Origin: Fragilaria crotonensis
Lineage: Eukaryota; Bacillariophyta; Fragilariophyceae; Fragilariales; Fragilariaceae
Reading direction: 5' to 3'
DNA: 34,848 nt
Assembly: GCA_022925895.1 (NCBI GenBank)
Contig: JAKSYS010000656.1
Location: 1-34,848, forward strand
The notes under the pieces were generated by a model. It was not told where the DNA came from. It saw nothing but the letters and a program-made list of their open reading frames with translations, and ran no database searches. The position numbers and the translations under genes were made by a program. This document shows, one piece after another, positions 5,825-34,572 of this stretch; the first letter of the stretch is position 1; each line of letters starts with the position of its first letter.

Positions 5825-6054
5825 TGTTAACTTCTACCCGTGCAGTACTATAATCTGTTCGGAACCTTTCGCAAGACGATCATGCCCCGAAGGGGCAGCA
5901 TGTTGGTGATATTAGAATAGGATTACAAGAATATAAACGTATGATATCGAGCTTCTCTACTGTACACTGCTACCGTATGGACATGTCCACTACGGTCATG
6001 CATATGTGCATAAACAGTAGCCTGAAAACACGATAGCACGAGCCAAACTTAACA
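5825..6054 (-). repeat. 3' LTR of the copia element
   Basis: About 230 bp, starting TGTTAAC and ending TTAACA on the plus strand, the usual TG...CA form. It matches 34342-34568 over its full length at roughly 95% by eye. It contains a perfect small hairpin tgccccgaaggggca (about 5883-5897) that the other LTR has lost through a deletion. Confidence 0.88.
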
Positions 6055-6065
6055 GTCCCCACAAA
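6055..6065 (-). promoter_or_regulatory. Polypurine tract of the copia element
   Basis: On the minus strand the bases just before the 3' LTR read tttgtggggac and then TGTTAAG. A short G-rich purine run touching the LTR start is where plus-strand DNA synthesis is primed in LTR elements. It sits directly outside the left end of the nested DNA transposon. Confidence 0.6.
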
Positions 6066-6067
6066 TT

Positions 6068-6093
6068 CATCAGAAGGTGCAATATGGTAACTA
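6068..6093 (+). repeat. Left terminal inverted repeat, outer transposon
   Basis: Starts CATCAGAAGGTGCA. Positions 17-26 again match the right end in most places (at, g, taacta). Weaker matching continues to about 40 bp. Confidence 0.8.
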
Positions 6094-6512
6094 AATTTTC
6101 ACATGTTCAGTGTTACCGGATAATGGTGTCCGTCTTTCCTGTTCTTACAATGTACATGGTCGAGTAAACAAATATGTTAGCTCAACAATATATTGTTACT
6201 TTTAACCATATCAGCAACATATTGACTTGTTTCATAAACATTTATGTTAACATATTTTGCTTCTTGTTACTTTCTTATAACGACAATACACCATCTTTGT
6301 TAAGTGATTCCGTTGTAAAATGACCATATTTGTTGTCGTTTATGTTGCTTAGTAGATATATATGCTGTTGACTATGTTTCTTTGTAACTATATATGTTAC
6401 TCCTAAATTCAATTGTACAAATCACAATTGTTGATTAAATCCACCTATATTGTTTCATTACGAGTTGCTGATGTTGTTGTCACTTCTAACGAGAAGGCAC
6501 CCGATGCAACGT
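6094..6512. repeat. Left subterminal repeats, outer transposon
   Basis: AT-rich and without a gene. The motif tatgtta/tgttaac and variants such as atttatgttaacat or tatatatgttac recur about every 30-40 bp in both orientations. Such subterminal arrays are typical transposase binding regions in CMC-type elements. The same motif recurs near the right end. Confidence 0.6.
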
Positions 6513-8100
6513 CTAGTCATCATCTGAGTCCCAGTCCGCCTCGACAGGCACCATTGCTTCCGCTCTCTCCAACGTGTTATTGGGCGCTGCACCACCTGCA
6601 TCTAGCTCGTCATCCTGATTATCACCAGCATTCTTCTTTCCAGCGCTTGCCCTGCAGAAACGCATCAACTCCTTTTCCATTTGCTCGGCTTCCGGACACG
6701 CCCTGTCCTCTTCAACCACCTTGCGCAATGCATTGAACTGGCTAATTCCGTCGCGACTCCACCCACTGTACTTGCATTGTCCCGTTTTTTTTGTATACTT
6801 TCCCGCCATTCTTCTTGCTTTCTTTTGTATTCCCTGCCCGCTGCCTGTTTCTGCTTCTGTTGTTGTGCTGTTGTTTTCCGTTCTTGGTCCAGTGCCTCCT
6901 GCCTCCTCCTCCGCTACGACTTTCCACTTCTCCAAGTAATTGTCGATTAGCAACAAACCGAAGGCTTCGTCGCTCACACTCACAATTTTGATCCATTGCT
7001 CTCTCGCGCCGCCGAAATGAGCTGTGTTGTTTTGCATTTCTCAAGACGTTCGCACCACAAACACATTCCAAGAAGTTGTTGAAGAACCAGAAGAACGCCC
7101 TTTTTCCCTTTCTGACGTAGATCTCTGAGCTTGCAGAATTCCTCGAATGTGAAGAACTCTTCACCGCGCTTTTGAAGTCTTTGATTGCATCCCTTGCAAT
7201 TTGGGAGCCGGACTGTTCGCAAGTACTTCGTTTTTGGTTCAACGCCTTAGTGAAACATTTTTCGTATGTCAATTGAAACACGTACGGATTCTTGGGCCTC
7301 TCCACCTCTCTCACCTTTTGAAAAGCCTTGGTGAATGATGCTTGACTGGTTACAAACTTGATCCTACGGAACAAGTTGTTTTTGACAAATATCGTAATCC
7401 GCTGTGCCACATTCTTCTCCACTGTCGGAACTTCCAACTCTGCATTAAACTGCAACTCCGCGGCCTGTAATCATTTGTTGCCCTGCTTGGGGCTTTGACG
7501 CCTGAAGTTCCGTCCTCGTCCTCGCTCGGAGGATCAGCCGCACCTTCCTGGGCACGGCGGCTCGACTCCTTACGATTCTGTTGCTGACGTTTCAAGGAGT
7601 TGCTGCGACGACGAGAATCCTCGTCATCGCCCGATGATTCGTCATCTGGTGAGTCATGAATAGCATCGGGGTTCGAGGAACTTTCTTACCCCCGCCTCGG
7701 TATCATCATCCCTGTCGCCATCAGTAGATTTGTAGGACGAGTCATCATCCGAGTCCTTTCGTTCAGAACCCGGGTTGTTGCGTGGTGGGGGCGGAGCCCT
7801 TTTTGCTTTTGCCCTGTTTGTTTTCTTCCTCTTTGCCTTGCCGCCCGAACCAACAACACGCTTTTTTCCCGGTTTCTCCAGCTCAACTGTCTCCACAGGG
7901 TCCGTTTGCTGTACTGTCTCCAATAGTTTTGCACGTTTTGCCGCCTTCCTTTTCTCCTCTTTCAGTTTCCTCTTTGTCCGCGCCGTTGGTGTTTCGGGTT
8001 CACCGTTCCTGTCTAGACGAACGCGTCCGCCTTGTCCTTGTTTGCTCCGAGTGCGCGTTGCTGGTGAGGATTCCAGAATGTTTGTCACCACTGGAGGCAT
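6513..8100 (-). CDS. GWS accessory protein of the outer transposon (frame-disrupted)
   Basis: Function unknown. Fragments in several frames read as one gene. It starts at the ATG at 8098-8100 (MPPVVTNILESS) with a long charged lysine-, arginine- and aspartate-rich N-terminus, likely disordered and nuclear. Next is a segment with VKNNLFRRIKF, then SDEAFGLLLIDNYLEKW. Near the end comes the signature SGWSRDGISQFNALRKVV followed by EEDR and EKELMRFCRA, and the protein ends in an acidic tail. The same three blocks in the same order occur in the gene at 20023-21280 of the inner element, so this is a conserved transposon-borne family. An accessory or structural role in transposition is inferred. Frameshifts lie near 7680, 7460 and 7030. 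The gene ends about 440 bp inside the left terminus. Confidence 0.72.
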
Positions 8101-9239
8101 GACGGCTGCAATGGACAAGTACAAAAAGCAAGCAATGGGTTAGAAACAAGTCTGACTGGTACGTTTCAATTCGCAGCAAGTGTGAGTTCAATAACAAGAT
8201 TGCAATTTTTAGTCATGTACTCTTTTTTTTGAATCAGAGAACAGTTTTGGAAGCGTGCACTTGTTGTCCTGTTTGTTCATCATGTAACTGTACATGATTT
8301 GAACATAAATTTATTATGTTCAATTTTAACAATAATTTAACATGTGCATGTCATTTATGTTGTTTGAATGTACTTGCGTGTTCACTACATAACGTCGTAA
8401 ATGTACAGTTTCATCTACTTGGATGGATATGTGTAAGGTTTTGAATATATACGACATGTGTGTAGTGCAGTCTTGTTTTGCATGGGCGGCCTCGCCAATC
8501 ATGTATCGTCAGTACTGGTAAATGTCGTACGCAGCAGTGGTACTATTAGTTCGTGTATATATGTTTATTAGTAAGGTGTATACAAATATATTTATTAACA
8601 TATCTTTGAATATGTGTGTCGCGTTGAATACATAGGTGGATTATGAATCTTATGACAGTTTGAGACACGAATCATAAAAATTCGACTACTGTCGATACGT
8701 ATGCTGCAGTACAACGGCCATGTAGCAGTATGCAGTCCAGTCATGGGAAACTAATAAATCATACATACATGTAAATAAGCATTCTCTTTTTTGACTACTA
8801 AACTTGATTAAGTACAACATACTTATGCGATGTGTATGTCATTTTATTATACATATACACGGATACTTAATTAACATTGCTACGAATTAAATCTATGTAT
8901 TAAAACCATGTATATATGGCTGTACTCGTGCAATTACTCTAAGTAAATGCACCTCATTTAAAGGTCTTGCTTGGAGTTCCCATGTGTGAAGTTTCCTTTT
9001 TTTGCATAGCACGCAGTGTATCTTGTTTTGCCTGTTTTCTGCGCGCACTGACACCAAAAATCACAATCTGGTGTCAGAGTACTTCTATGAAGTACTTCGT
9101 TCATTGATTGTGTTTCGCAACATAACGTCGCCGTCGGATCGTTCTCGCTTCCTTTGAGACAAATTGACAGTCCGCGCCAGGAAGCGCGTTGATTGCTTTG
9201 TCAAAAAGGACACGGAACTGGCATTGTGCGGCTCACTAG
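8101..9239. other. Intergenic region of the outer transposon, left of the nested insertion
   Basis: No gene is supported. Upstream of the GWS gene the sequence is AT-rich with many atgtt/acatg motifs, and promoter elements for the minus-strand gene would lie here. The last 150 bp become more GC-rich, like the genes of the outer element, until the change near 9240. Confidence 0.5.
9048..9097. repeat. Two adjacent perfect hairpins
   Basis: The first arms are ctgacacca (9048-9056) and tggtgtcag (9069-9077). The second is agtacttc-tat-gaagtact (9079-9097). Both stems are perfect (9 and 8 bp). Role unknown. They lie about 140 bp outside the inferred left end of the inner transposon. Confidence 0.65.
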
Positions 9240-9254
9240 CATCTAAGGGCCAAA

Positions 9255-9560
9255 AATCGAAATAATGCAGTACTTACGAATGCTCAAGTTCGTACAAACT
9301 TAAAAAGGTAGATATTTAGCCGATTTTAGTACATAACCACAATTTTGTTTCCATATTTTTCCACAAGCTCATACATCCGTACTCGTTAATATACGTGTTT
9401 GTCTATTTATTCAAATTAGTCGTTCTACGTGTTTCTCAACCTATGTACTAATCAGTACCAAATCACGTCTAAGGATTCGGATTGACATTTGAGTTGGTAT
9501 TTCTGAAGTCAATACGGATAAATGAGATTTGTGTTTCTTCCTTATGTGTGCGCTCAAACA
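9255..9560. repeat. Left subterminal repeats, inner transposon
   Basis: Recurrent short motifs: tacgaatg, gttcgtac, catccgtac, attagtcgt, ggattcggatt and caatacgga. The same family of motifs fills 21466-21690 at the other end, and differs from the tgttaac motif of the outer element. Confidence 0.5.
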
Positions 9561-9744
9561 CGTCATCCCTGTTTGTCAGTATGCATGACCAGTTTTCATT
9601 GGTTGTCCATGAATTAATGTTGATATTGTTAGCCAGTGTTGTGAAAGCAGCCGTTTGATGACACACCCACTTGCAAACACGCAGTGACGCAAACACCACG
9701 TTTATTATCTCTCACAACATAAACAATTCAATCACTCTCAAAAC

Positions 9745-12588
9745 ATGTCAGGATTTGTATGCTACAACCCGCATTGTATGAGCCGTCACAAACTGTTCAC
9801 AACAGAAAAGGCATTCACAATCCATTTTCAGCGGTCACCGACATGTTTAGCTTTTCTCCGTCGCGGCCATTCAACAACCACAACACCAGTTGCGCAATAT
9901 CGCGTTGACGCAACCTTTGATGAAAGCGTTTTACAAGTACCAAACGTCCCAAGCATTTGCGTTGCGAAGTGGTAAATGACTTGTACAATCGTGCAGCTCC
10001 ATCGTCGTTGAACGCACTGCCAGCATTGTTGCCACCCGTCATTCATATGACGGAATCACCGTTTGATGATATAAATGACATTCAAAATCTTGTGGATGAA
10101 CCCAATGATATACCTGAATGTCCAACACGTCATGATAGAGTTGCCGCATCACAATTTATGTTTTCTACGGATCAAAAATGGACCATTTCATTGTTAAAGA
10201 TATTGGATGACATAAATGCGCCTGATTATGCGTTTGAATCGGTCTTAAATGGGCCAGACATGCCCACGCAGATGGGTACTCATTTAATCCCGTCGGTGGG
10301 CAATCGCGATTGAAAAATGTGGATGTTCTGTTTCAATCTGTGACAAACGCACAGAGGCTGTTACCTGCGGTTGTCACTGTGGAGGTGCCGCACGGACCAC
10401 CGTGCGATGTCATCGCTTATGAATTCGCACCGCAATTACTTAACTTGTTGCAAAACCCGTCCATCATGACTGCTGAAAATCTATTGATTGATTTGAACAA
10501 TCCCTTGGTACCATATCAGAGCCCTGATGGCAGACTTGGGGATGCGCTTTCTGGGAGTGTGTATCGCGATGCATACCAACGAATGATAACGAATCCGGCA
10601 CGACAATTATTTGTTCCCATTATCCAATGGATCGACCGCACACATGTGACAGGTAATGCCCGATTTTCACTGAAACCATACATGTTCGCGCCAGCTATTT
10701 TTAAAGAGGAGTTTCGTCGTAAGCTACAGGCCTGGGGATATCATGGCTTCCTCCCAAAAGCAAAATTATCATCCGCACAAAATCAAACTAACATGAAACA
10801 AGGTGACAATGTGCGGAACTATCATGCCCAGTTGGATGCAGTGTTAAGTTCATTTACTTCGGCCGGTCCCTATTTAATGAATGTATCATTGCCAATTGGT
10901 CCCCAGGGAATCATGCAAGTGGATGTCGTCACTTGTATTTTGTATGTCATTCAAGACATGCAAGAAGGTGACATGTTGTGTGGTCGATTTGGGTCACATG
11001 GAGCAGGCATTCAGCGACATAGTCGTGCGTGTGATGTCGATCATGAAAATTTGGATAATCCTGAGGTCCAATGTTCTATGCTTTCAGCCCACGATATTGC
11101 AGCCATTGCGCGTGATCCCAACGTGGCAACTCGAAAACGATGGTCACAACATCGTTTGAATAATGTCTTTGATAGCATTCCGATGGCCGACCCAATTCGT
11201 GGAATATATGGTGCAACACCGGTTGAAACCATGCATGCGTTTCGTAAAGGCATGATCGAAATGGTCACGTTCTTGATTCTTGAAAATGTCCCTCCCAGCC
11301 AGTTGGCGGCGTTGGACGCCCTTGCAATTCGGTTTCACAATACGCACCGACAAACAATTCGCCGAACGTTTCCTGCAACGGATTTTAGCCAAGGTATCAC
11401 AAATTTGACAAAAATTTCAGCAGCGGAACGTTTGGGTTTGGTATTTTTGTTTGTAATTCTGGCACAATATGATGAAGGATGGCTGATTTTAGAATCCACG
11501 TTTGAAATGCGGCGAGTAAGAGCCCAAAGTGCTGATAAAAACGCTGCAGCCGAAGAAGCTGCCAACCTTCCTGCTGTGATTTCTGTCTTTGAGGCAATGT
11601 TATGTTTTGATCAATGGCTCAATAAAACCTCATACTGGACCCCGCAGCATCATGCAGAATCCAAAATGGTTGTTCAGAATGCCATCAAAACATTAATGTC
11701 CATGTGTGTAACTGACATTCCACTGTCCAAAAACAAATCGTGGAAGTTTCCAAAGTTTCACGAATTGTTGCATTTACTCGACAATATGGAACGGTTTGGT
11801 GCTCCAATCAATTATTGTGCGCAACGTCCAGAATCACTGTTAATTCCAGTTGCCAAAAGCCTGGCCGCCGAGCACAAAAACGTCACAATGGATCTGCTTA
11901 CGAACTACAATCTGCGCAACGCTTGTCGTATTCACTGATGATTAATGCAGTCTATACCAGAATATGGGACACCACAAAAGGTGCCGCTAACGTTCCTGAG
12001 AACACCAATCCTCCGACCAGCACTGGCAAAGCCACTTTTGGAACATTGACATGTGACTTCACAACTGGATATCGGTTGTGTTGGCATACTCAAACCAATG
12101 TCTCATTGATGCACATTCCCGATACTGTATTGCAGTTCTTGAGTTACCAATTTGGTTCAAAGGTGCATGTGTGCACGGAGCTGAGGCACAACGCATCCAC
12201 GTATCGATGCCATCCATCATTCCAATCTGGAGGTCCTGTTTATGATTGGATGAATGTGAACTTCAAAACCAAAACGTCCAACAGAGTCTCGGTGCATCCG
12301 TGCCGTTTAACTATGGTTGTTGTTACCAACAATCTGCAACCCATTCGACTGGTTGTCCAAAAAGGCTTACACACAACTGGCATCAAATCAGTGCTTCTGA
12401 CCGAATGGTTAATGTCCGACGATTATACCGTTATTGAACCTTCTGATATAGATGGCCCCTGCTTTGCTATTTTGATTAAGGATGATGGCTCTAAAATTTT
12501 GCAAACGTTGCCTCGCCATTTGTGGGCATCAGAATTTACTGAACCTGTGGACGAGTCAAGCAAATGCTATCTCAAAACAGGGTCATAA
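9745..12588 (+). CDS. Transposase of the inner element (zinc finger plus DDE-type, frame-disrupted)
   Basis: About 950 codons over four frame segments, with shifts near 9955, 10305 and 11855. The N-terminus has a C-x4-C...H-x5-C finger (CYNPHC, then HFQRSPTC) for DNA binding. The core shows three conserved acidic sites: IDRTHVTG (Asp at 10634), QDMQEGDMLCG (Asp at 10955 or 10970) and QRPESLLIP (Glu at 11831). These are a plausible DDE triad. GIYGATPVETMH and FPKFHELLH...FGAPINYC resemble fungal Plavaka transposases. A C-terminal segment after 11940 (STYRCHPSF...VYDW) also has a counterpart in the outer transposase. AATAAA overlaps and follows the stop (12587-12597). The gene converges on the cargo gene with 36 bp between stops. 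Whether it belongs to CMC/Plavaka or KDZ is uncertain. Confidence 0.8.
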
Positions 12589-12597
12589 TAAAATAAA
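12587..12597 (+). terminator. Polyadenylation signals of the inner transposase
   Basis: Two overlapping AATAAA hexamers at 12587-12592 and 12592-12597, at the stop codon, in the 36-bp space between convergent genes. Confidence 0.5.
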
Positions 12598-12624
12598 TGT
12601 TATACTTAATTCATGTAAAAGGTT

Positions 12625-15600
12625 TCAATTTATTTCTGTCATCAATGTCATTTTTTCAATCCTCTGCTGTCGCTGTCCTTCATATCGAAAAATGTAACCC
12701 CGCCGGAATCCAACAAACTCACTCTTCACCAATGGAGTAGAGGTACAATAATTCAAAGCCTCTTCGCAAAAAGGGAGGGCTTTAACCTCATTCGCATCAT
12801 ACACAAATCCTCCATGAATGCAAACGGCATGACAACAGCTACCGTCCGATGCAGTCAGAACACCAAGCAAGAGGTTTCGCGCATCGAGGTCAACTCTCCA
12901 ATCGAATTGTCGAGGCAAACGCCGAATCACTATCCAAGTCGGAAGAATGCTTCTCGCATGTTTCACAACATTTTCCAAAGCATCGACAACTGCCCCTTTT
13001 AAAATTTCTTCACCGAAATTGTCAATGGTAGATGCCTCGTCGCAAAAACCTAGCGAAAACAAAGCTGAAGCAAGGGCCTTCGACACACACAAATCTTTTC
13101 CATCAGCTTGATTGAAGTGGACAGCAGGCGCCCCCATAACATTGCAAGTTTGGATGGTGGTGCAAGTGAGATGGTTTGTAATCACCGACGGGCACATCCA
13201 CGAACCCACGTAGATCCCCCATCTTCAACTCCTTCACAAATGGTTCACCAAATGCCATACTGACAAACTCTTCCTCCAAAGTTGTCTCCTTATTATTTTC
13301 CATTCGACCTAACCATTTCTCTTTTGAAGTAACAGGCTTTCGAATGACTGACTTTTGCCATTTTGCCTCTTCCTTTTCAAGACGTATTTTCTCATGTTTC
13401 TTGATGTTCATTGGACTTCTTGCAACCTTAGAAGGTGTGGGTGGTGCCTTTTGCTGTGACATTCGGCGTCTGGGAATTGTCTGTTCCAAAAGCGAAAGTT
13501 TGTCGATTCGCTCCGCTGGAAGGTCAGCAAATCCAAGCTTCTTTCGCCTCTTGGCATTCGTTACATCCTTCTCATTTATGACCTTCTTTGTTGCTTCATA
13601 ATCAATCACATGGCGAACTTGGGGAGGCACATATCGCACACGAACAACTTTATGTTTGGCGATTCTTACTTCAACATCACGTGGAACGTCAGTCCACTTG
13701 TCTGTTTGATGCATGTTGATAATATGTTGAATGTCCACATCTGCATATTCGCTTCGGACCCATTCTTCATCGACTTTTAGTTCTTCTTCAGAGACCACCA
13801 TTGTTTTTTGGATCTGTTTCGCTTGGTTCTTGATAAACCAAGCGAGCATAAAAGCTGTTGTTTGCTTTTTCAAAGCGGAGCCCCTTAACCATCGTAAGGC
13901 GAGTAAACATGAACTCGTTCGTCAACTCCTTTGTAAACTGAGATCGTTCATTCTTGATACCTTTAATCAACTCACGGATGTATTCTTTCTTGGTTTCGGA
14001 GCAATCTCGGGCTTTCATTTGCTTTGCCCAAAACTCAATCGTTTTCTGGTGATCCTTTTCACTTGACCAGTTCCACTTTTCAAAACTCTCTGCAATAAAT
14101 TTTGAGAGTTCCGCTTTGAAACCTTTGTCGATAGTGACAATTGTATCATCTGCAGTCGCTGTAGCATGGTATTTGTGATAGAAGGCCCCAATCGTAGTTG
14201 TCGACTGTGTAGAAACCTTTTGCTGTTTGGCTTCCTCAGTGAGCACGATGTAATCATTGTCGACATCACCATCATCATCATCGCTTTTGAGTCTTCCTTT
14301 CTTTCGTTGGGGTACCACATTGTCATCTTCAAACAGAACATCATCAAGATGCAATCGTTTCAACAATTCGCCATCTTTGCGCTTCTTTGTGGGGGTTCGA
14401 ATGTGGAGTTTGATGGGTCCAAGTTTTGAAGGATCCTCGATCTTCTTGATTGTGTACCCTGGTTCTTCATCTGCCGACTTGTCTTTTTTTTGTTGGTGTG
14501 TCTTCAATTTCGATGTCTGCAACGTCGTCTTTTGTTGGTGTGTGGTCGATTCTGATTTCTGCAACAATAGTGTCAGGATCGATTATTGTCAAATCATCAG
14601 CAGAGGCTCTTGCGATTTCATTTGATTGTGAAGCAACCTGCGTTGCAGCAGCCATCGAAGGCTCTGTCTCTGGCGACATGAAATTGATTTCATTGTCATC
14701 AACAGTTTCCCTTAATGCAGCAGAGGCTTTCGCATCTGGCGACATTAAATTGATTGTCACATTTTCATCCAGATTCATGGATACACCAGCCCCTCTCTTT
14801 GCTGGTGATGATAAATCAAAAGCCTTATCTGCCTTTTCTGCTGGTGAAGATAAATCAACAATGATATTTCTGTCGGGGCTCTGGGAAACATCAATTGCAG
14901 ATGAATCACCTTGAGCTGCAGCTTGGTGTCTTTTCTTTTTCTCTTCATCAATTTGTTTGCGCAGTAGGCGAAGTTTTGGCTTGGACAATGTCTGGCGCTT
15001 TTTCATTGTGTCGAAATCGGGCCAAGCAAGTGTACTCTGCTTTGTTTCCAAGTATAATGGATTGACCGAATTGTTCTTGTTCACTCGTTTTGGGAACACC
15101 TCATATTGCATAGCAGCCATCCGATCAAAGAGAACAAACCATTCTTGGCGAAGCATAGTAAGATAATCTGCCAATATCAAGTCGTTGTTTTCCGTCGGGA
15201 GTGGTTCAAAACCGTCTGTCAAAGTAGGCAAACCACTCCTTTGTGATGTTATCCTGATGTAGCTCCCAATTCTTCTGAGGACCAAATTGCTCATCGAAAT
15301 TCATTCGTTCCACTTTTTGGGTGCAAACATTTCGCAATATAATCCCGACAGCAGCAACAACTCCCACTCCACAGTTCCATCCATCGTCTTGTCGTGGGGA
15401 GCAAATTTGCTTCTGGGAGACGTAAGGCCGGAAAGCTTTTGGTTCCAAGCATATTGCCTTGGGACGTTTTTCCAAATGGGGAACACCATCTCATAGCCGC
15501 ACCTTGCGCAGGCATGCTTTCTTGGTAAACTTTGGTGCTGTATGACAAGTTCAGGAACCAAATGATGCCTGTATCAATGGAGACATCCCGCGTCCCAAAC

Positions 15601-17626
15601 GGATATTTGCTGCAGTATCGGAAGAAAAATGGTTTTGGAGAATTGTCTGCATTCTCAATGTCACCAACGTTGTCACGAATGTACCCTGGATTGAAGACAA
15701 AAGTAACACTCCAGTGCTCACCATCCTCATTTTGAGGGAACACTAATACCTGTTTCGAAAGCAATCCGGGATTTCTCTCGATGATTTCATGCACCACAAA
15801 GTCTTGCTGAACTTGTTGTGTACGTTTAATCTGTTTCGAACCTGTTCCCAAAATCTTTTGGACCAAGGCTTCCGAGTTCCTTTTCATCCATTGATGCATT
15901 GTCTTTTTCCAATTGAAGGAGGGCTTTGTAAGATGCGTGCGCCGCAAAACCTTTCTTCAAGACGCTTCCAAAATAAACAGACAAAATGAAAGTTGCATCT
16001 TCATATCTTCCATCACATGTCAAAATCGAAAGCATCAAGTTTATCTCACCACTCGAAAACCATTGTGTTCCTTCCGATTCACTATGTTGCTTGCGACGGA
16101 CCAGCGTCATTTCGCCTTTCAAGAACAACGAATTGGCAGGCAACAAAGGCTCAAGTGGACCAGGCAAGAGTTTGCGCAAAAGCGGTAGTGACATAAATAG
16201 ATTGTCCGCATCTTTTCGATCGTAGACGAATCTTCCACCACCTATCAAAAGTGGAGGTGGATACTGGCACCAGAATGGTTGGGTCCTCGGTTCAACATTG
16301 ACTGTGTCTTCATCATCTTCCTTGTCCTTGGCGGCATTTGCAGAATTGCGGTAATTCAATTCACCATGGCGCAAATGCATAAGCATTGGGTGCTTTGAAT
16401 CATTTGTTGAGCGCAAAAAGGATGATGGGGTTTGGGATTTCAATGCTGTTTGCAAATGCAAAGGAAGCATTTTAAACCCGTCATCTGCTTCACTTTTGTT
16501 CAACTGACGAAAACCAATCATCGTGTAGAAGTGAAATGCTGATGGTTCTGAACATTGAAGGAACACCTCAATCGTCTTGACATCCTTAATGGATGCACAC
16601 CGTTTAATAACTTGAACCATCATGAACAAACCCACTCCATTGCGGCGCCACGATGTTATCGAAGGCGGATGTGCTGTCAAATGGTGCGTCACTCCCAAGA
16701 AAGACACAAATACCGACATTGCTCCATGATCGTTTGGATCGCGATGCAATTGAAAAGTAACCGCTGACACTGTGATCAGGGATGAGGCATATGGCGTCAG
16801 GGATTTCGGTAGAACACCCTTTTTGGCAACCCGAAGAGCAAGCATCATGATTGTGATATCTTGTTTCATGGCCCGATCGATTTGTTCTTCCATTGACGGA
16901 GAGGGATGGAAAATCTCGGTGTAAAATTGTCGAGCGCAAGTTAAGAAATTCTTTGGAGCTGTTCCAAAAGAAATGTTTTCGACGCATTGCGGCCCCAAGA
17001 GAACATGGCGAAAATGCCACATTTTATTGCCAATGTCTCCAGGCTTGAATATAGCCTCCGCAAACCGAAAGTGTTTGAACCAATTACGGAATGGAGGTAA
17101 ATTCTGTTCCACAAAGCCGACATCCAACCCACGGATATACGCAGCAATTATGCCGCGCTTCTGTCCATGATTAAGTTGTCCAGCCAACTCATTAATTCCG
17201 TCAAACTTATACACCGAAGCTAATGTTGAAACTTTCGTGGGTGTACTTGGAACAGGAACCACAACATCGACGTCACCTTCAATAAGTTTGTGGATAACCT
17301 CAGGAGTGGGCGTTGTGCGGTACTGCCTCACCAGCAGCCTTGGCCATAACCTCAAGTCCTTGCATGGGATCGGCACTTGCAAGATTCGACAATGCCAATG
17401 CAGAAGCTGCCAAATCTGCATCACCATCCAATTCAACAGGAGGCATTTGGCTTGTCTCAGCTCTGGCATTTGCCTCTGAGGACGACGAAACCAAACTATC
17501 ACTGTTTTCCATCCTACCAATCATGAGTGTTGTCTCAGCATTGGTGACTGTTTCTGATGCGGCCGTGGACTCAGCTTCACTATCAACTTCACGAAGCATT
17601 TCACTCGTCAAATCTTTCCCACTCAT
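12625..17626 (-). CDS. Cargo protein of the inner element: GNAT + Ulp1-like protease + papain-like domain (frame-disrupted)
   Basis: One gene of about 1,660 codons, starting MSGKDLTSEML. Order: an acidic serine-rich N-terminus; a GNAT-type acetyltransferase region with the acetyl-CoA motif RRNGVG (about 16645) and the SAFHFYTMIGF motif (about 16520); an Ulp1/C48-like cysteine protease with EHWSVTF (His about 15715) and QDDGWNCGVGVVAA (Cys about 15372); a long lysine- and acid-rich linker with TPTKK/SP motifs; and a C-terminal part with DGKDLCVSKALASAL, then GSCCHAVCIHGGFVYDANE. Cys, His and Asp in that order suggest a second, papain-like peptidase fold. Frameshifts lie near 17320, 15840, 15395, 15215, 14485, 13865 and 13170. 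The one at 14484-14491 is in an 8-base T run. The substrate is unknown; deSUMOylation or acetylation of host chromatin or of the transposase is inference. Confidence 0.72.
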
Positions 17627-17689
17627 GATGGAGAATCAACAATCGTATGATTTCAATCAGACCTCACAAACTTCAATGACGCCCAATGG

Positions 17690-17849
17690 CTTGAACGGTC
17701 CTTTGCTAAACAAAGGACTACTGCACCAACCGAGTAATGTGGGCTTTACCAGTAAGGCACGACGTGTAGGCACACTACTCTTTCGAGCAAGATCCTCGCA
17801 GGTGACTGGTGTCCACTGTCCACACACAAAACCGAGCTGGTGCAGCAAC
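17690..17849 (+). repeat. Upstream direct repeat, copy 1 (about 160 bp)
   Basis: Starts cttgaacggtcctttgctaa and ends ggtgcagcaac. It is repeated 271 bp downstream with only a few differences, mostly a small deletion and single bases near the end. It lies just upstream of the cargo gene start at 17626, so it may be part of its promoter. The internal stretch cctttgctaaacaaagg is itself an inverted repeat. Confidence 0.9.
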
Positions 17850-17960
17850 AGAGAGAAGCAAGGAATGACAGGAACAATAATTGCGTCCTCGCAACAACTG
17901 TGGCCAAACAGCACAATGTCCTCCAAATCAATCAACAACAATGTACCAGGCGTCCAATTT

Positions 17961-21439: not shown

Positions 21440-21465
21440 AGATTACGTTGTTTCGTGAGAAGAAA

Positions 21466-21690: not shown

Positions 21691-21747
21691 ACGAATTCAG
21701 GTCTTGCTTTTTAGATGTACCTGCCAGGAAGCAGTAGAGAGCCCGAT

Positions 21748-24173: not shown

Positions 24174-24174
24174 A
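24169..24174 (+). terminator. Polyadenylation signal of the outer cargo gene
   Basis: AATAAA overlapping the TAA stop at 24171-24173, as in the inner transposase gene. Confidence 0.4.
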
Positions 24175-24250
24175 CAACATGTTCGATTTGAATACTGAAA
24201 CTATTCCTTCTACTGGTACTCTCATCGATGGCACCCTAAGGACTGCCTAG

Positions 24251-27200
24251 CTACCCCTTGTTTGTCTTCACGGGAGCTTCCCTTTTGCGTTTCAAGTTCC
24301 CTATGGACTGTTGTGTGGCGGTGGCCTTCACAGCCTTCGCAGCCTTTGCAGCCGCTTTCTCTGTGGCGGTGTCCTCCCTCTTCTTCTTGGCGGCAACCTT
24401 TTCGGCCTTCTTTGCAGCAACCTCGGCTCCAAACTCTTCGGTCTTGACCCTATGCACCTCGGCCACTTGGCAGGCGGCTGACAAATTCTTTCTCGTACTC
24501 CTCTTCAAACCAAGTGTCGTCGTCGACGTCGTGTTCCAAATCGTGATGACACTTATTGATGAGAGAATCCCACGCTTGGGGCCACTCCGCCTTCCGACGG
24601 ATCAAAAACAGGTGACACCGCTTGCGCCTCGGCGCTTTCTCTACTCCAATGGGGGCGTCTTCGATGCCGAGTACTGGAGATAAGATTGACTTGACGTCCA
24701 CCAGGAACAAGGTGGGATGTCTCTCAGGTGAGTGGAAATGTGGGGTGTAGCGCCCTATGAGAGTGTTTGGAGTGTCGAGGTCACCAACGGAAACTGGATC
24801 AAACGAATGGGCGACAGCGTACAATCCGGCTTCCAAATTTTTCTGCCCATTTGCTTTGATGTTAATGCGCTCTCCATTTGGAAGCCCGCGAAGATCAACA
24901 AAGGTGTGGATGAATGCTGGATAATTGCGAGGTATCCTTCCCACTTGATCATTGCGCTGTCGTTCCAGGCTTTGCCATCGTAACAGGGGTGAGCGCGGTA
25001 CTTGTTGCCCTTACGGTCGGTAAACAATGTGAAGCATGGAAGTGAGTGCTGTGGCACCTTGGGCAAGCAGTGTTGACTCAGGAAGTCCATCACTCGGGTT
25101 GAAAGGTGGGCTGTCTCCATGTTGTCACCGGGAGATGGGTGAGTCCAGCGGCACGCTGAAAATTCATCACCAGTCTTCCATGAAAGGTTGAAGTGTCGGC
25201 CACCCTTGCCGTCAACAAGTAATGCAACGGGTTGACCTGCTCTGTTGCAGGCATCGCTTTTTTTTGGTGTCCATGTCCGCGGAAGCAAGCGATACAACAA
25301 GATTCTCAATGTAGCGATGGGCAGCTTGCTTGGTGAATGAAACGGCTCGTTTCTGGGTGTTCCGTGATGTTACCTTTGCGAGTGGAATGTGGGCTGACTC
25401 CGCGTACGAACTGTTTACGTTCTCTGGGACGCCGTGGTCAAGGATGTCCTCGCACAGATGCAAGACCAAATGTGTCTTGATCGTGTTGTTTCCCATTGCT
25501 CCTGGGCGGGGTGCCACTTCAGCGACAACACGCATCAGCCACTGAACTGCCACATGTGAACGCTTCACCATTTTCTTTGGAATGGATGGTTGCTTCATCC
25601 ATTGATGCCACACTAGAAGAGCAGTCACGATGTCAATCAATCGGTGACATGGTTTTCATAACGAAGCCTTTGGTCGGGAACCCCAAGTCTCGGTTCCTTC
25701 TTCCCGACATCGAAGATAGCGCGGAAGCAGGTGGTGTGCAACGCAAATAACTTCACCAAAGGCACCCGCCATCTCGTGTCCCATCAGATTGGTTCCTGAT
25801 GAGAATCCCTTGGGAAAGTTGGTTCGTGGGACGTCGCGGTCACTCTGTCTTGACAGTTTGCGGCCCAATTTTGCACACAGTTGATCGTACTCCTTCAATG
25901 CATTGGACTTGGGACCGGCTTGGGTGGAGAAGCCTGCAGGCAGTATTTGAACCAACCAAGAGAAATCAAGTGCAGCATCTCACCTGGACAGGCACCAAAA
26001 ATGCCCCGCTGATTGTGCAGACCAAAACGAACCCTGGCAAAGCCGTTTTTAAGGTAGGTCTGTGACAGCAATGGAGCTCATTGGTAAAACCCTTGCGTAC
26101 AAGGGTGTCCATTTTCTGGGAAGGCGGTGGGGAAACTTAGACTTGAGTAACCAGTCAAGTATGTAGGGCACTCACAGATGCGACAAAGTTGTTTGATCTG
26201 TGAAAATCGGGCGGTGTAGTGCCCACATAGGCGGTCGTGACCCTCTGTGTCACCAATGATGAACGGGACATACGGGTGGAACACGACGGGGTGCATTGTT
26301 CCGTTGTACTGCAGATTCCATCGGAAGCCGTACTTTTGTAACTGCAAAAACCAGACTCTTCGAGAATAAACTGGATCTGCATGTGCATCTCGTTGAGGAG
26401 TAATGTCGCCCAACTGACATTTTCATCAGGGCACCGGTGGGTTGTTGACGCGGTGCACACCCTTTGGCAAGTCTGCGGGTGCATTGAACTTGGGATCAAT
26501 TTCGGCGTCCGATGGGAGGTTGGCGGGGTGCTGTGATTGATGTATCAAGGATGCGCATGGCGCTTGGGAGGCGGCGCGTAATGTGGTTCAAAAGGCCGTG
26601 CGAGACTGTTATGGGCTCCATCTGGAGCCGTCCGGCCATGTCGATGTGGGTCTTGTCCATCGCCATGACACAAGGTAGGAGCATGTCAACACCGGGCTTC
26701 TTTATCAGGGCATCGTACGTCTTTCTATAACAACGACCTGTGTGTATGTCACCAACATCGGAGGATGCTTGTGGTGCAACAAACGGATCCTTTGCTTCAT
26801 CAAAAAAATAATTTGTGTCCTGATTAAGTGTGGGGCATGAGAGAAGCGACGCGAACACCTCGCGGGCATCAAAAAAAACCATGGACACTATCCTCTGCGT
26901 GTAAGGGAGATACAATTTCTTCTCCTTGGGGATCAGTCCATTCATGTTATACCTTTGGTACAACTTGGCAATTACCTTCTCACGAGTTGGTTGAACACCC
27001 TCGCGGAACACAGTAAATGCTTTGAGAGGACAGTGCAGCTTTCTAAGGAGATCCAATAACTCAATTAGGACCTTCTCCTCCTGGGAAAATCGCGCGAGAC
27101 CTAGTGGGTTCGCTCGCAGCTTGAACAGTTCCAAACACAAATCCAACACACCAAGATCAGGACCCTCCTCGTCCTCTTCTTCAGTTTTTTCGAAAGCATC

Positions 27201-27550
27201 CTGATTGCCAGCGTCGCCATCATCGTTGTCGTCAAACATCACAAAGTTGTCATCGTCAACTGCGTTCAAATCGTTGACGTGATGCAGAGGATCCCCGCCT
27301 CTCCTCTTACAGATGCACCGCTCCCACGGAGTGAAGTCCTCGAATTCGGGAAAGTGGAACGATTTCCGCCTTGCGACGCATTAGTTGTGTTTTCAATGCT
27401 GTCGTTCGGGATGGTGGGTGCCACTGTTGCAGCTGCTGCATTGACACGTGACATGTAGAATGATTTACATGCCAAATTTTGAGCGAGGTGGGACTGAAGC
27501 CTCTTGAAACTCTTTCCACAAACGGCACAAGCATTAGTTGACACTGACAT
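24251..27550 (-). CDS. Transposase of the outer element (zinc finger plus DDE-type, frame-disrupted)
   Basis: Starts at the ATG at 27548-27550 with a C-x2-C...H-x6-C finger (CAVCGKSF, then SHLAQNLAC), followed by a serine-rich and an acidic stretch. The core has MDKTHIDMAGR (Asp at 26655), IIGDTEGHDRLCGHY (Asp at 26249) and YAESAHIPLAK (Glu about 25399), the proposed catalytic triad. GIFGACPGEMLHL, NFPKGFSSGTNLMGHE and LVLHLCEDILDHGVPENVN match equivalent sites of the inner transposase and of Plavaka-type enzymes. The C-terminal segment (YRAHPCYDGKAWND, then FVDLRGLPNGERI) is followed by an alanine/lysine-rich tail with AAKKAEK repeats, possibly a coiled nuclear tail. Frameshifts lie near 27300, 26500, 26420, 26080, 25960, 25750, 25660, 25260 (an 8-T run), 24910 and 24500. 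The finger side faces the right terminus. Confidence 0.76.
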
Positions 27551-27775
27551 GCTGATCCCTGCTGATGATTTGGTTAACGCGCAGTAATGAGAACAGAACA
27601 CAAATGTTTTATTGTGATCAACAAAATTGGCGTGAAATGATTGGTGTACAATGATTATTTCCAATGAAGCCAGAAATGGTTCGTTCGTAATCCCCTCCGA
27701 TCCAATAACAAAATGTGGGATGTAAGATACATACCGTTCAATTGAAAAAAGGAGTGCGTGATAAGCGTAGGTCAT

Positions 27776-28076: not shown

Positions 28077-28197
28077 TTGATACGTGGTACGCGGGTCGAT
28101 TTGCCTCGGAACAATCATCACCCAACAGAGGCCTGAGGCACCATTTTGGGAACCTCGGTATTAAAATAAAAAAAAGGGGTTGTGCCGAAGCACATCG

Positions 28198-29985
28198 TCA
28201 CCATAATATCCGACCCGCATGCTCGCGTAAGGTCGGACCAGGCAAACATTTCGTCAACAAATCGGCAATATTCGTCGCCGTGTCTTCCTTTGCAACTCTA
28301 ATCACTCCCGCAGCGATTGCCTCTCGCGCCCGATGATAATTGATAGCCGCATGCTTCTTCTTCAACACGGATTCCGGGTTAGCTGAATTCAGCACCACTG
28401 CATTGTTATCGCAAAACACATTGCATGGCCCATCGATCCCTACACCCATCATCCGCAGCTTATAACGTAGTCCTCAATCATTTCGATTGCAATCCGCATT
28501 GCAACAAACTCCGATCCGAAAGTTGAGGACTCTACCGTATTCTGTCTTTTGAATACCACAATATTGGAGCTCGATTAACGAAGATGATCACACCCGTGTG
28601 CGATCGCCTCGTAACTCTGCACCCGCATGGTCTGCATCAACGAAGCAAGACATCACGACGGAACGTCCTCGGTGTCGGCATATCCGGAGGCAAAGCTTCC
28701 GTAGCCCCAGGATAGTATTCACTCCAATCACAAACCTTAAACCTCCTCTCATCAAAGGCAGGTTCCGTATCGTCAAAGACCATCGTCGACGAATCATATC
28801 GCTTCAAATACGCAAAGATATGAAAGAGTTGATCCAAGTGGCCTTTTCTAGCAGCCACCAAATATCGAGACATCATCGATACCGGCATGAGTATATCGAG
28901 CCGTCCGAGTTCGCATATCCAACGGAGTATTCCTATCAGCCCCTGATAGTAGTTCTGCTCTCTCGGCATTCAACTCCGTTGTTTGGTCCAACTCCGGCCG
29001 GTAAGCACTGGCAAGTGGAGTAACGACCTTGTGGGAAGTCGCTTTCCTATTGAATCTAGTTCGGTCTCAAGGTCAGCGATTGCCCTCTTGGTATATTTCG
29101 TAGACGCCAATGCCCATCGAACCTTTCCCGGTTCGTCTGACTCAGCGATATACCATTTCATAACATCGGCACCCAAATACAGTATTGGTTCCTGCACACT
29201 CCTTCTTTCAAAGTGAATCGCAGCCCTAGCTCGTCCATAAACCGTTTGGGTTCCTCCATTGTAACCGCCACATCATCGACATAGCAGATAACGTATCGGT
29301 AGTATTCCGTACCATCTGTTTTAGTGTCTGGCATCATCCACAGGTCCGGTCTGCCTTAGTACTTACGTACCCCATCTCTCGAAGATTGTTTGCGAGAAAG
29401 TCGCGAAAAGACTTGCCGCTGCTCCGTAATCCATAAAGTGCACGCACGATCATCACCGGACGTCCTTCATTCTTGGGACCAAACTCCTTCCCGCTATAGT
29501 GTATAACCTTCCCTCGCCGGAGCATTCAGATAGGCGTTCTGAATGTCGGCCGATAATATGTCCGTATCGTGAAGTGCTGCCATTAAGAAGAAGAGCTGAA
29601 CAGTGTCTCGAGACACCACAGTCGAAAAGGTTGAATCCTTTGGGGGATCCGTTTCATTACCGTTCGCACAAAACTCGCCTTCCTGGTCAAATCACCGATC
29701 TTGACGTCGAAAACCATATGGCATCTTATGCATTCATACCCGATAGGCATCTTATCGTCGTCTCTAAACTCAAAGCAGGTAAAACATTTCTCATCTCCTT
29801 CTCGATCGCTCGCCAGAAGTCAGTTCCTGTCTCCTCGTCGAACCTCAAAGCCTCTTCAACTGAATGCGGTAATCGGATACCAAATTTGTGCGTCCGCTTC
29901 CAATATTTGGCTGATTTCACTTTCTTGATGATACGATGTCGTTTCCTAAGCGTCTCGTCCACCCACCATTTGAAAGCGGGTTGAT
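28198..29985 (-). pseudogene. pol: Copia reverse transcriptase and RNase H
   Basis: Last part of the pol polyprotein; it copies the element RNA into DNA and degrades the RNA strand. RT starts near RTHKFGIRLPHSVEEAL. The catalytic motif VICYVDDV lies at about 29270-29290. RNase H has CFVDADHAG, TFGSEFVAMRIA, VFCDNNAVV and DLLTKCLPG, with the expected acidic residues, and ends at 28198. The frame is broken many times (for example near 29730, 29500, 29335, 29195, 28970 and 28600), so no full protein can be made as read. The 120 bp after the stop lead to the nested transposon rather than to the polypurine tract. Confidence 0.88.
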
Positions 29986-30420
29986 CTGAAATTTTGTTCG
30001 CAACAGCATATTCAGCCACTTCTATCGGGAACGACTCTTTAAATCCTTCAGAGGCACCCAGGTTGTCGTCCCGTCCTTCCACTCTACTAAGAGTCGCCAA
30101 CCCTGAGTAGTAATACGTGGCCGCTGTCGACCTTGCTTGTCAACGAAGGTGCCGTCAGCAACCTTCATTGCTCTTTCGTCTGATTCATGATCGACAATAT
30201 CGGATATCAACGTGTGAGCCTTGCCTTCTTTGTCCACCTGAGCGTACATGTTCTCCGCAATCATGTTCGCAGCGTACACCTCAGAAGTGCCATCTTCAAA
30301 TTCAACAACGTATTCCTCGTATCCAAAATCGGATTCGAGTTGGCTTTGCCGATTGATTCCCATTGATGTCCCTCTTCTGGCAACAACCTGTGCTTTCAGC
30401 ACTTCATCGCCTCGAGGCAG
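29986..30420 (-). pseudogene. Chromodomain-like segment between integrase and RT
   Basis: EEYVVEFEDGTSEVYAAN is followed by LLVEWKDGTTTWVPLKDLK and, after a frameshift near 30060-30090, FPIEVAEYAVANKI. The aromatic/W-K-x-G...W-x-P-L pattern followed by a helix resembles a chromodomain, which in some LTR elements directs integration to marked chromatin. The position before RT and the exact fold are inferred. Confidence 0.5.
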
Positions 30421-30649
30421 CATGACTGAAGCAGTTAAATATCCATCAAAAGTCTCTGGCGTATACTCATCCATCTCAGGCACGCCAGGTTCTTCGTCGA
30501 AAGCTGCATCATCGTCCAGATCCTCCAACAAGTCCCCATTCACCGGTAGAGCTCCAACGTTTTCTTGTGCAATTCCATCTTCCACACTATCCCCGATCTT
30601 GTCTCTTATCGAGAGGTCCAAAGATTCAATTGCCCTCCTGACAGCGTCA

Positions 30650-32290
30650 CCGGCCAACTCATCTCGTGTGATTGACCATACTGTAGACCTCGCAATAGGC
30701 CGTGCCGACAAAGGCAAAATCCAAAAACAATCACCTCCTCCGATGTTTGTCGCCAACCCTAGCCACTTACCGATCCTGCTTTCACCATCGGCATCACGGT
30801 ACCAAACATTCTCATACCAAGCATGTTGAACCCAAGGAGAAATGTCGGGTGTGTATCCTAAAGCATGCTCGGTCGCACAACGCCCTTGTAACTTTGGAGT
30901 TTCATACGCTGTCAGTCCCCGCAAAGTGGCAACCAACTCCCCAAGGAAACACCATAGACGTTTCGGAGAACCCGATCGTTTCGTAAACCTCCTAATTGAT
31001 CTCTTTATCTCGCGTACATCAAGTTCCGCTCGATTCTGCCAAGGTGAGTAGGGCTCCGTCATACGCTGATCAATCCGGAAACTCGCGAACTGTTTTGCGC
31101 CACTCTTTGTACGCCCATCGTTGGGTCATTATCAACCACCAAATTTTCCATCACGCCATGTTGCTGAATGAAGCTTGTGAGCGACAAATGTGCATCACTC
31201 TTCAATTCCATTGGCGTAAATCTAGCGAACCCCAAACCATTCCCAATCAGATGCGCACACTTGAACCCGCGGACCGATTTCATCGTAAAGAAAAGAGTGT
31301 CCGCATAAAAGGTCCCCTTCAAGCGTGGGTAGCGCAAGTGGGGCATGGCAGTCCGAAAACGACGTTGTGCCGGATATTTCAGCGTTCGTACACCGAGCTG
31401 CGTCGTGACTTGGAGGGTCTTAGTCGCCGTTGATAAACCAATGTTCCATCTTTTGGCGACATCCTCAGGCGTGATGACGGAACGCGTCCCGTCGCGAACT
31501 ACCGCTTCAACAGAACGTAGCTCAAAAGCACCAGCAGACCTCACAGGGTCATCCCCAACCAGATCAATCCGAACCGAGGCAATGAGGCGATCCGCTAAAT
31601 CATTTGACTCTGCAATTGCCAGTTCAACCGAGGTATCGTAGTCAGCACCTTCGCCCTTCGAATCACCGAGGTGGAGGACAAATCTCTCCTTCCAGTACGT
31701 ATCACGTTCTTCCTCAGCAGAAGAGAAGGCCGAGGCATAAGGTTCCCATTCCTCATCGGAGGTAAGTTCGACATGTCTTGCCAGATCTTCAAGCTCTGCC
31801 GTCGTAGGAACTCGCGTGATGAACCCAGAGATGACACCACGCAGTGTCAACGGTATGGTAAGGTCAGACTCCGGTATATGAATACTGTGCGTAGAATCAG
31901 AATCATATTGTCGTGGACAGTCATGTACCTTCAAACCATGAGCCCTCAGTTGGTTGGGACAAAGCAACGAATGCTTCATCTTGTCCCCAAAATACAAAGC
32001 CTCGTTTATTACCAAAATGTACGTCTTGCCAGTTGACGGACAATCATAAGCGGTTGCGACAGTTGCGATCGGAATATCTTCAAGCGCCCTGAACTCCGAA
32101 TCACAAAAGGGTGACACTGCAACTTTGCCGGTTAGGTCAAGAACCACTGTATTGCTACCCGCCACACATGTGTCTGCATGGGTGTCGAGTTCCATCCTTC
32201 CCTCACCGGTCACAGCAAATTGACTCGAGTCCATAACAACTCTGCGGGATACCATCATAACATGACGAACAGCCCTCGGGGTGGGTAACG
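30650..32290 (-). pseudogene. pol: Copia aspartic protease and integrase
   Basis: Protease: ELDTHADTCVAG (about 32160-32190), with the catalytic DTxAD-type site, then LCPNQLRAHGLKV. Integrase: after the NIGLSTATKTLQVTTQ region comes FYADTLFF (first Asp), LVVDNDPTMG (second Asp, about 31130) and PYSPWQNRAELDVREIKR (Glu about 31030), the D-D-E set for strand transfer. Two single-base shifts within about 60 bp (31115 and 31080) break the integrase between the second Asp and the Glu. The C-terminal part runs through TPDISPWVQHAWYENV to a diverged end. Confidence 0.85.
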
Positions 32291-33686
32291 CAGCCGTAGA
32301 AGAGACAGCCGAGATTGTGGCTTTCTTCTTAGCTTTCTTGTGCGCGCCACGTCCGAACTCGTTTCCACCTTGTGCCGTCGCATCGGTCTCGTTGGCTTCG
32401 TCACCATCGCTTGGTGCAGCCTCATCGTCCTTGTCTTTAGTTGACTCGGCTGAGGCAGCTTTCCTCTTGCTGGATCCCTTCTTATCCTTGCCCTTCGACC
32501 CTTGCTGTTTTTTGAGCTCGATAACCTTGGACCGCTCTTCCGACGTGAGCTGCTTCCACTCCTCCGCCGAGTAAAAACGGGCCTCAAGCTTCTTCTTGCC
32601 GCCCTTAGACTTCGCATGACCCTTGTTACTCCCGCTGTCGGCCGAAGACACATTACGATCATCGCTCCCACCACGTTTCGCTTGACGATGAATCATCTGG
32701 TTGGCGACCAAAGTCCCCAGAAACTGCTGCGTTGCTTCAAAGCTATCTTGGTATCGGTCCTCACTCAAAACACATGTGATCCCAGCCTCAAGTGACGAGT
32801 CCGAAATTCCTGCAAGGAAGTCCGACACCTTCTTAGTTTCGGGAATAGGCTCATTACAGTCCTCCAGCTCATTGTGTGCTGCTTGGTGAATCGCAACATA
32901 TTGAGCAAAGGTGAACTGCTTCCTTATTCCACGATAATTGGACGAAGCAATAGAAGCGTAGGCCTTGTTCTTGCGGGTCTTGACAGATGTCTTCCTCACA
33001 CTGCCGGCGCAGTGCAAGTACAGCACCTCTGCCGTCCATTGTCCTGTCAAAACGTTTGACAAATGACCATCCGAAGCCATCGATAACAAGGCTTTTGATG
33101 ATCTCCCACAAACTCACATTGTCAACGGCAAATGCTCACCAGACAACAGAACAATGTCAATGATTTTCTTGGTGTGTTGTATACGTTGCACCACGGATCT
33201 CGTCCGTAACCACGTCATGGTCTCTAATCGTGTATGACAACGGAATCTTCGCTGCACCGCGAATACGCCCAATAATTCTTGAGTTCCCAGAACTTGAACC
33301 AGTCCTTCTCAGCCTTCAAAGGGTCTGGCTTTGTAGGAACCTGGTCCTTCCTGGCAGCAATCTCTATCTCATCGGAACGCAAACATTCATGTATTCCACC
33401 AAGACTGCAGCATTAAAAAGGATAGGGGTCACAGGCAAACACACATGTGACGCTCCTCTGCCCAATACTTGAACGCATTCAACCGCCGAATCGAGGCAGT
33501 CGAAAAGATGACATCAGGTGGTGAAGATTTGATGGCGTTCTTAATCATCGTGTCAAAACTCTCTTTCGACGCCATGAGGAGTTCCTCAGTGGAGTCGAAG
33601 CCTTGATCGGTCATCACGTAGGTGGCGGTTGTTTGATTGAGACCACACCTTTCCAAAGCCGCGCGCATATTGACTGCGTCAGCCAT
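32290..33686 (-). pseudogene. gag: Copia Gag-like protein
   Basis: Starts MADAVNMRAALERCGL at 33684-33686, the typical start of diatom copia gag, followed by FSTASIRRLNAFKYWAEE. After frame breaks between about 33430 and 33090 it continues as WTAEVLYLHCAG, NYRGIRKQFTFAQYVAIHQ and PETKKVSDFLAGI, and ends in a lysine-rich nucleic-acid-binding tail with RFYSAEEWKQLTSEER. No CCHC knuckle is evident. It would coat the element RNA in virus-like particles. It needs several frame corrections as read. Confidence 0.8.
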
Positions 33687-34074
33687 TTCTTCACAAGTTT
33701 CAAAAAACGAAAGGAAGCGAATTAAAACACAAATCGTCCACGAAGTGCGAAAGAGGGTGAAACAACCATTTAATCATCGGCCGCTCAACGGATCCCGCAA
33801 AATAGCATATTAAGGTCAAAGCTGCGCCAACTGACAGCAACCATCGCACGAAAGATTGCTTGTGATGGTGTGCATGAAGATAAAGCGTCGGTTGAGGCGA
33901 TTCCAACCGGACGTAGTATCGCAAAACAAAAGACTGAAAAGTTCTTTTCCAGTTCGTCGCCCGTTTGCTCCGTCTGATCAAACGGAAGCAACGATCATCT
34001 TGGAACGACACATCCGACAGATGGACGAACCTTCCAGCAGTCGCGCTGGGACATCGCTGCATCATGAGGCGTTA

Positions 34075-34117
34075 CGAGCGATATCAACCTACATCGCTCG
34101 TCCGCCATGATGGCGGA
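34075..34117 (-). repeat. Tandem perfect hairpins in the copia leader
   Basis: First: cgagcgat (34075-34082) pairs with atcgctcg (34093-34100) over a 10-base loop. Second: tccgccat-g-atggcgga (34101-34117). The two stems abut. Their place in the leader suggests an RNA packaging or dimerisation signal. Confidence 0.65.
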
Positions 34118-34327
34118 TGACAAGGCGTATCCCGCCACCAATACACACTGTAGACCACCGACATTAGGTTCCATCCAGTAGCTTGAGGGCTGGGGCCTGT
34201 ACTGCTGCTACCCATGTAACCGGCGCATTTGCTGACCGGACACACATTCGTCATCGATTGGATTCAGCCCAGCCAAGCTGCCATATATCGAAACAACGAT
34301 GATGCTGCCAAGGTTGCCCTGCAGCAA

Positions 34328-34341
34328 TGGGTCTGATAAAC
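34328..34341 (-). promoter_or_regulatory. Probable primer binding site of the copia element
   Basis: Directly after the 5' LTR the minus strand reads gtttatcagacccattgc. TATCAGA in this place matches the centre of the initiator-Met tRNA site common in copia elements (TGGTATCAGAGC), with mismatches at both ends. Confidence 0.45.
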
Positions 34342-34568
34342 TGTTAACTTCTACCCGTGCAGTACTATAATCTGTTCGAACCTTTCGCAAGGCGATCATG
34401 CCCCCGAAGGCATGTTGGCAGTGATATTAGTAGGATTACAAGAATATAAACGTATGATATCGAGCTTCTCTACTGTACACTGCTACCGTATGGACATGTC
34501 CACTACGGTCATGCATATGTGCATAAACAGTAGCCTGAAAACACGATAGCACGAGCCAAACTTAAACA
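34342..34568 (-). repeat. 5' LTR of the copia element
   Basis: About 227 bp with TG...CA ends, paired with 5825-6054. It should hold the element promoter on the minus strand. Small indels separate the two copies (for example around 34400-34430). Confidence 0.88.
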
Positions 34569-34572
34569 GTAT

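Follow-up and report, generated by a model that had tools for sequence, protein, structure and literature searches.

The window analysed here is the whole of contig C620 (JAKSYS010000656.1; 34,848 bases) of the freshwater diatom Fragilaria crotonensis, and copies of its elements were sought in a genome assembly of 62,107,879 bases in 881 contigs. The window carries a Ty1/copia retrotransposon that is interrupted by a Plavaka-type DNA transposon (outer element), which itself contains another Plavaka-type transposon (inner element). Both DNA elements hold a transposase gene, a cargo gene tail-to-tail with it and a third gene, in the same layout and in opposite orientations (Table 1). The three-level nest proposed in an initial annotation is real, heterozygous and young: terminal inverted repeats (TIRs), 2-bp target site duplications (TSDs) and precise empty sites were found at both levels. 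Its boundaries, target duplications, empty sites and gene content are read directly from the DNA.

Table 1. Features of the nested locus, in window positions (LTR, long terminal repeat; ORF, open reading frame).
Feature	Position	Strand	Details
Copia TSD GTAT, left	5821-5824	.	Read in sequence; right copy 34569-34572
Copia 3' LTR	5825-6054	-	Repeat search; 1 substitution from either C45 LTR
Outer-element TSD TT	6066-6067 (left); 28077-28078 (right)	.	C45 empty site has single TT
Outer DNA transposon (PlavakaB-like)	6068-28076	-	TIRs and other copies; 9,530 bp excluding inner element
Outer third gene	6513-8139	-	ORFs 6513-7040, 6742-7470, 7654-8139
Inner DNA transposon (Plavaka transposase)	9239/9240-21717	+	12,478-12,479 bp; TIR CATCTAA; TSD TA 9237-9238/21718-21719
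Inner Plavaka transposase gene	9745-12588	+	PF18759 E 3.3e-12 on 10238-11935
Inner cargo gene region	12625-17635	-	GNAT ~16450-16650; C48/Ulp1-like His and Cys motifs ~15350-15720; other parts unassigned; broken into several frames in C620
Inner third gene region	20026-21280, ends approximate	+	Several short ORFs
Outer TET/JBP-like dioxygenase gene	21718-24180, ends approximate	+	C620 pieces 22125-22739, 22651-23256, 23260-23868
Outer Plavaka transposase gene	24240-27775, ends approximate	-	PF18759 on 26499-27380, just below cut-off in C620 copy
Copia internal region (gag, pol)	28077-34341	-	RVT_2 detected in C45 allele
Copia 5' LTR	34342-34568	-	Repeat search
Copia TSD GTAT, right	34569-34572	.	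Read in sequence

Since copia is encoded on the - strand, the LTR at 5825-6054 is the 3' one. The two LTRs are 28.51 kb apart, in agreement with the ~28.5 kb first reported, and the prediction that removal of the insertion would leave a normal copia element of ~6.7 kb was confirmed: excision of 6068-28078 leaves 6,733 bp, compared with 6,767 bp in a natural uninterrupted allele on contig C45. In this allele, two open frames of 508 and 1,490 codons were found, the longer one carrying the RVT_2 reverse transcriptase domain (E 2.4e-12), whereas no Pfam family was matched by the shorter one. The LTRs with TG..CA ends (TGTTAA..TTAACA), the RVT_2 domain, the gag-pol order and the TSD are those of a Ty1/copia retrotransposon, from which the element departs by a TSD of 4 bp instead of the commoner 5 bp. 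The alignment of C45 with the window covers 34842-28077, resumes immediately at 6070 and continues to 2104. The genomic sequence thus agrees on both sides, and the copia element without the outer transposon, an empty site that the initial annotation had suggested looking for, is present in the genome. The right flank shared with C45 is limited to 274 bases by the end of the window. Substitutions between C45 and the window amount to 0.19% in the copia internal region and 0.00-0.49% in the flank pieces. The left flank at 4600-5824 was matched at 97% or more only by C620, C45 and a third contig, C202; partial matches at 72-85% were found on 12 further contigs. As the C45 LTR pair shows 0 differences over 230 positions, dating by LTR divergence adds little.

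The arms of the outer element (6068-6114/28030-28076) are the longest inverted pair found in the window, and its perfect 14-base ends are each present once in it. Relative to copia, the insertion lies ~120 bases downstream of the pol stop, with 13 bases left before the 3' LTR. The left kilobase of the element was matched at 96% or more in nine places, C620 included. Where both intact ends were available, the TSDs read were TT (C620), AT (C773) and AA (C649); C98 (damaged left end), C110 (beginning at a contig end) and C177, C546, C269 and C691 (one end only) were left out of this reading. The Plavaka transposase domain PF18759 scored 26.1 bits (E 6.2e-06) in the C620 copy, under the cut-off of 26.3, and 28.2 bits in copy C773, over it. 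The ends CATCA..TGATG with a 2-bp TSD are those by which PlavakaB is defined (CATCA..TGATG termini, 2-3-bp TSD) in the available part of the fungal account (PMC12730594), and by domain, termini and TSD the outer element appears PlavakaB-like. Its third gene, open over 484 codons in copy C773 (L006:2179-3630, - strand), gave no Pfam match above cut-off. The divergence from C620 was uneven in copies C773, C110 and C649: the left end differs by 0.6-1.6% and the right one, which holds the transposase, by 4.1-8.2%, a pattern resembling recombination between subfamilies; in copy C98 it was 0.1-0.2% at the left and 0.9% at the right.

Six loci hold the outer element without the inner one (C773, C110, C98, C649, C177 and C546). 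In these copies, window position 9238 runs directly into 21718 with a 2-base overlap, and reading the junction in three of them (C98, C773 and C110) showed a single TA. The second gene set that had been noticed at 9745-21280 does have the same gene order, inverted; those positions span the inner genes, the extent of the element itself being that of Table 1. Copies of the inner element also occur elsewhere, the left end being found at 97% or more in ten contigs besides C620 and C202. Among the seven copies with both ends read, a matching 2-bp TSD was observed in C620, C474, C106, C147 and C874 and not in C527 and C200, the left flank of the C200 copy being only 3 bases long. Substitutions were 0.00-0.27% versus C474, C106, C147, C674, C200 and C527, whereas the left end was 2.3-3.2% diverged versus C131, C339, C710 and C874 and the right end 6.3-7.0% versus C874, C380 and C825; from these ranges, one subfamily was active very recently and others are older. 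The inner transposase carries the Plavaka domain (PF18759, 46.7 bits, cut-off 26.3), and in copy C147 a 705-codon frame is still open at the end of the piece examined. Its ends, CATCTAA..TTAGATG, have CATC in common with PlavakaB but a different fifth base, and the element is therefore named Plavaka-type and not PlavakaB. The two transposases are only 21% identical, and the third genes of the two elements showed no similarity (best E 1.1, the inner one being represented by a 139-aa piece). A search with both transposases returned 173 proteins, many of them with a precomputed PF18759 match among the best 120 of the 173; the outer transposase matches the Fragilaria crotonensis entry MHU86_2294. 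Both elements would be moved by a CACTA-like DDE transposase working on CATC...GATG ends.

The left part of the nest was encountered a second time on C202, which matches window 1-19217 at 97.7%, the difference being mostly gaps. C202 was first taken as a third allele, and a third diverged copy is possible. In a three-way alignment of the left flank (3,891 gap-free columns), private sites numbered 26 in C620, 21 in C202 and 5 in C45, and 26 gap columns were common to C620 and C202 versus 3 for C45 alone; moreover, C620 and C202 both have an extra G between TA and CATC at the inner left end. On account of these flank counts and of the extra G, C202 is most likely the nest haplotype assembled a second time, with errors. 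It is the only other contig in which the copia LTR, the outer and the inner element were found together.

These results are best explained by three successive insertions, the nest itself having a probability of about 0.93. A copia retrotransposon would have integrated with duplication of GTAT; a PlavakaB-type cut-and-paste transposon of ~9.5 kb would then have entered a TT just before the copia 3' LTR, on one haplotype; finally, a second and distantly related Plavaka-type transposon of ~12.5 kb would have landed, oppositely oriented, at a TA lying between the third and the dioxygenase genes of the outer element. The order copia, outer, inner given by the initial annotation holds for copia before outer at this locus and, structurally, for outer before inner, whereas nesting does not decide between entry of the inner element here and elsewhere. 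Two points weigh against this history: the right-hand junctions of both DNA elements are each represented by a single contig, and the inner element may have joined the outer one before the latter landed at this locus. In a different scenario, the outer element acquired the inner one at some other locus and later transposed into copia together with it, as a single 22-kb composite. Such a composite could be mobile since the outer TIRs are intact, and nested insertions in giant Ectocarpus elements are generally fixed among multiple copies, according to the part of that report available (PMC12477816); however, no outer and inner pair was found besides C202, and the inner element is missing from all six further outer copies that extend to its insertion point, which makes a composite jump quite improbable. 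There is virtually no chance that the 22-kb block is a single large element or an assembler chimera: the C620 consensus is indel-rich in places and two junctions are in one contig only, but TIRs and 2-bp duplications are present at both levels, the one-unit and misassembly readings were rejected on the exact empty sites there (C45; six outer copies), and C202 has both left junctions as well.

Transposon nests occur widely and this one is ordinary as an arrangement; knowing a polymorphic nest to the exact base has its use but is not exceptional, and the larger point is the cargo. What merits following is the layer in between, a diatom Plavaka transposon that carries a TET-like gene. In copy C773 the dioxygenase gene is an open frame of 581 codons, and the AlphaFold2 model of the protein (pLDDT 71.8, pTM 0.75) predicts a TET fold with its double-stranded beta-helix. 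The HxD...H iron ligands are present in a 43-row alignment; both motifs were readable in 49 of 97 sequences, none of these 49 being without a ligand. The predicted fold and the HxD...H pattern are shared with the TET/JBP dioxygenases TET2, CcTet, NgTET and CMD1, to which the diatom protein is only 9-13% identical. The diatom family lacks an invariant Arg ~10 residues beyond the distal His, where the 2-oxoglutarate-binding residue of NgTET lies; the only invariant basic residue after this His is a Lys 35 residues on (in P0002, positions not being superposed on known structures). In the assembly, 63 merged TET-like loci were counted among the matches listed, alleles not removed; of 33 cases in which dioxygenase and transposase are neighbours, 32 have the two genes tail-to-tail. 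When viral contigs were scanned with the dioxygenase family, 0 relatives were confirmed among 16 pattern matches.

Several observations stand against a transposon-borne TET-like enzyme. Sequence searches with the dioxygenase gave nothing over cut-off in Pfam and no meaningful E-value in PDB, kinship to TET being seen by fold search alone, with low Foldseek TM-scores (0.32-0.43, target-normalised). Among the candidates scored, no transposase match lies within 8 kb of 30 of the 63 loci (for example C108:544927-546441 and C34:84498-86549), for which host genes, older remnants or neighbours of missed transposases are candidate readings. Finally, the dioxygenase and transposase frames are broken in C620 itself, with 4-6 gap openings per kb over the dioxygenase gene versus three other copies. 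Over the whole window, gap openings versus near-identical copies vary from about 0.7 to 22 per kb depending on region; as the consensus is unevenly indel-prone, the frame breaks are not to be taken as real decay, and assembly errors are likely, though not proven, behind the broken dioxygenase frames. It is unlikely, but deserves consideration, that the conserved cargo of the outer element belongs by its fold to the 2-oxoglutarate-Fe(II) oxygenases (AlkB-, FTO- or prolyl-hydroxylase-like) and does not act as a TET enzyme.

The cargo of the inner element is of another kind. A GNAT domain was detected (PF13673, E 4.4e-05, 23.9 bits, cut-off 23.6), the homologue P0098 falling just below cut-off with 23.4 bits, and a profile match to NAA50 chains was obtained (E 1.9e-04). 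Among 13 homologues, several of them fragments, an HWS motif was found in 8 and an NCG motif in 6; we assume that these His and Cys motifs resemble those of C48 peptidases, and the Pfam C48 match was weak (E 0.17, 1 of 12 members). The AlphaFold2 model (pLDDT 35.5) is too low in confidence to be used, and no fold is therefore claimed. A relative at 99% exists among the Fragilaria crotonensis entries (MHU86_12070). On the - strand, 12628-13224 encodes the C-terminal part of the cargo, with a second Cys...His pattern, by eye like another cysteine peptidase. Just upstream of the gene lies a 137-base direct repeat, 97% alike (17680-17816 and 17951-18087).

Both cargoes may be directed against host silencing. 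The outer TET-like enzyme would oxidise 5-methylcytosine on the element's own DNA and thereby weaken silencing, a role towards which we lean slightly. Host C5 cytosine methyltransferase genes are present: 13 PF00145 matches were obtained. The strongest of them (E 5.9e-67) lies on C869, a contig that also has Plavaka matches and is therefore most probably of diatom origin; the weaker matches could be bacterial. In Phaeodactylum, methylation is limited to transposons, as far as the consulted part of the source tells (PMC12344493), and in fungal elements, a transposon-borne TET has been proposed to act on 5-methylcytosine of its own DNA (PMC12730594, in part). The host methyltransferase genes and the transposon-limited methylation in Phaeodactylum make the predicted oxidation plausible. 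The GNAT/C48-like cargo of the inner element would act on host proteins or chromatin with the same effect on silencing, which is rather doubtful. More broadly, and tentatively, diatom Plavaka elements might carry anti-silencing kits, with a TET eraser in one lineage and an acetyltransferase-peptidase in the other, most TET-family genes of this diatom being transposon-borne and the heterozygous nest offering a natural allele pair. If so, what a TET gene on a transposon does to the methylation of adjacent DNA could be read directly from the two alleles, near-identical haplotypes with and without the element on which an effect on local methylation is testable. With about half of the listed TET-like loci beside Plavaka-type transposases, the DNA-methylation arms race would extend to stramenopiles.

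A paper of 2014 reportedly linked TET/JBP genes to transposons. In the literature searched, which did not cover the content of that paper on algae, no published account of Plavaka/TET transposons in diatoms was found. Transposons carrying TET/JBP genes have already been described in fungi, and the PlavakaB TET+ families of Agaricus bisporus and Gymnopus confluens, as presented in the accessible part of their description (PMC12730594), have PF18759, CATCA..TGATG ends, a 2-bp TSD and a TET/JBP-type dioxygenase in common with the outer element, the kinship of the dioxygenases being visible by structure. The outer element differs by its diatom host, by a cargo tail-to-tail with the transposase and by the 63 TET-like loci listed in one assembly, alleles included. 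The Plavaka giant repeats of Amoebidium (PMC11244446) are likewise large, gene-bearing repeats with non-fungal Plavaka transposases; they reach up to 50 kb and have tyrosine recombinases, and the portion of the article at hand mentions no TET cargo. The giant KDZ, EnSpm and Sola elements of Ectocarpus (PMC12477816, in part) are comparable as large DNA transposons of an alga that bear accessory genes and contain nested transposable elements, but nesting is mostly fixed among copies there, whereas here the other haplotype is without the nest and the cargo is TET-like.

Two further features were noted outside the nest. A block of ~2.5 kb upstream (window 1-2103; C202 L053 571-3079) is present in C620 and C202 and absent from C45; in the window, it has inverted arms (196-231/2019-2054) and direct repeats (10-59/2054-2101), which suggests a further small transposon. 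The CpG observed/expected ratio was 0.56 in the flank at 2104-5824 (depleted) versus 0.92-1.08 in the three elements (not depleted).

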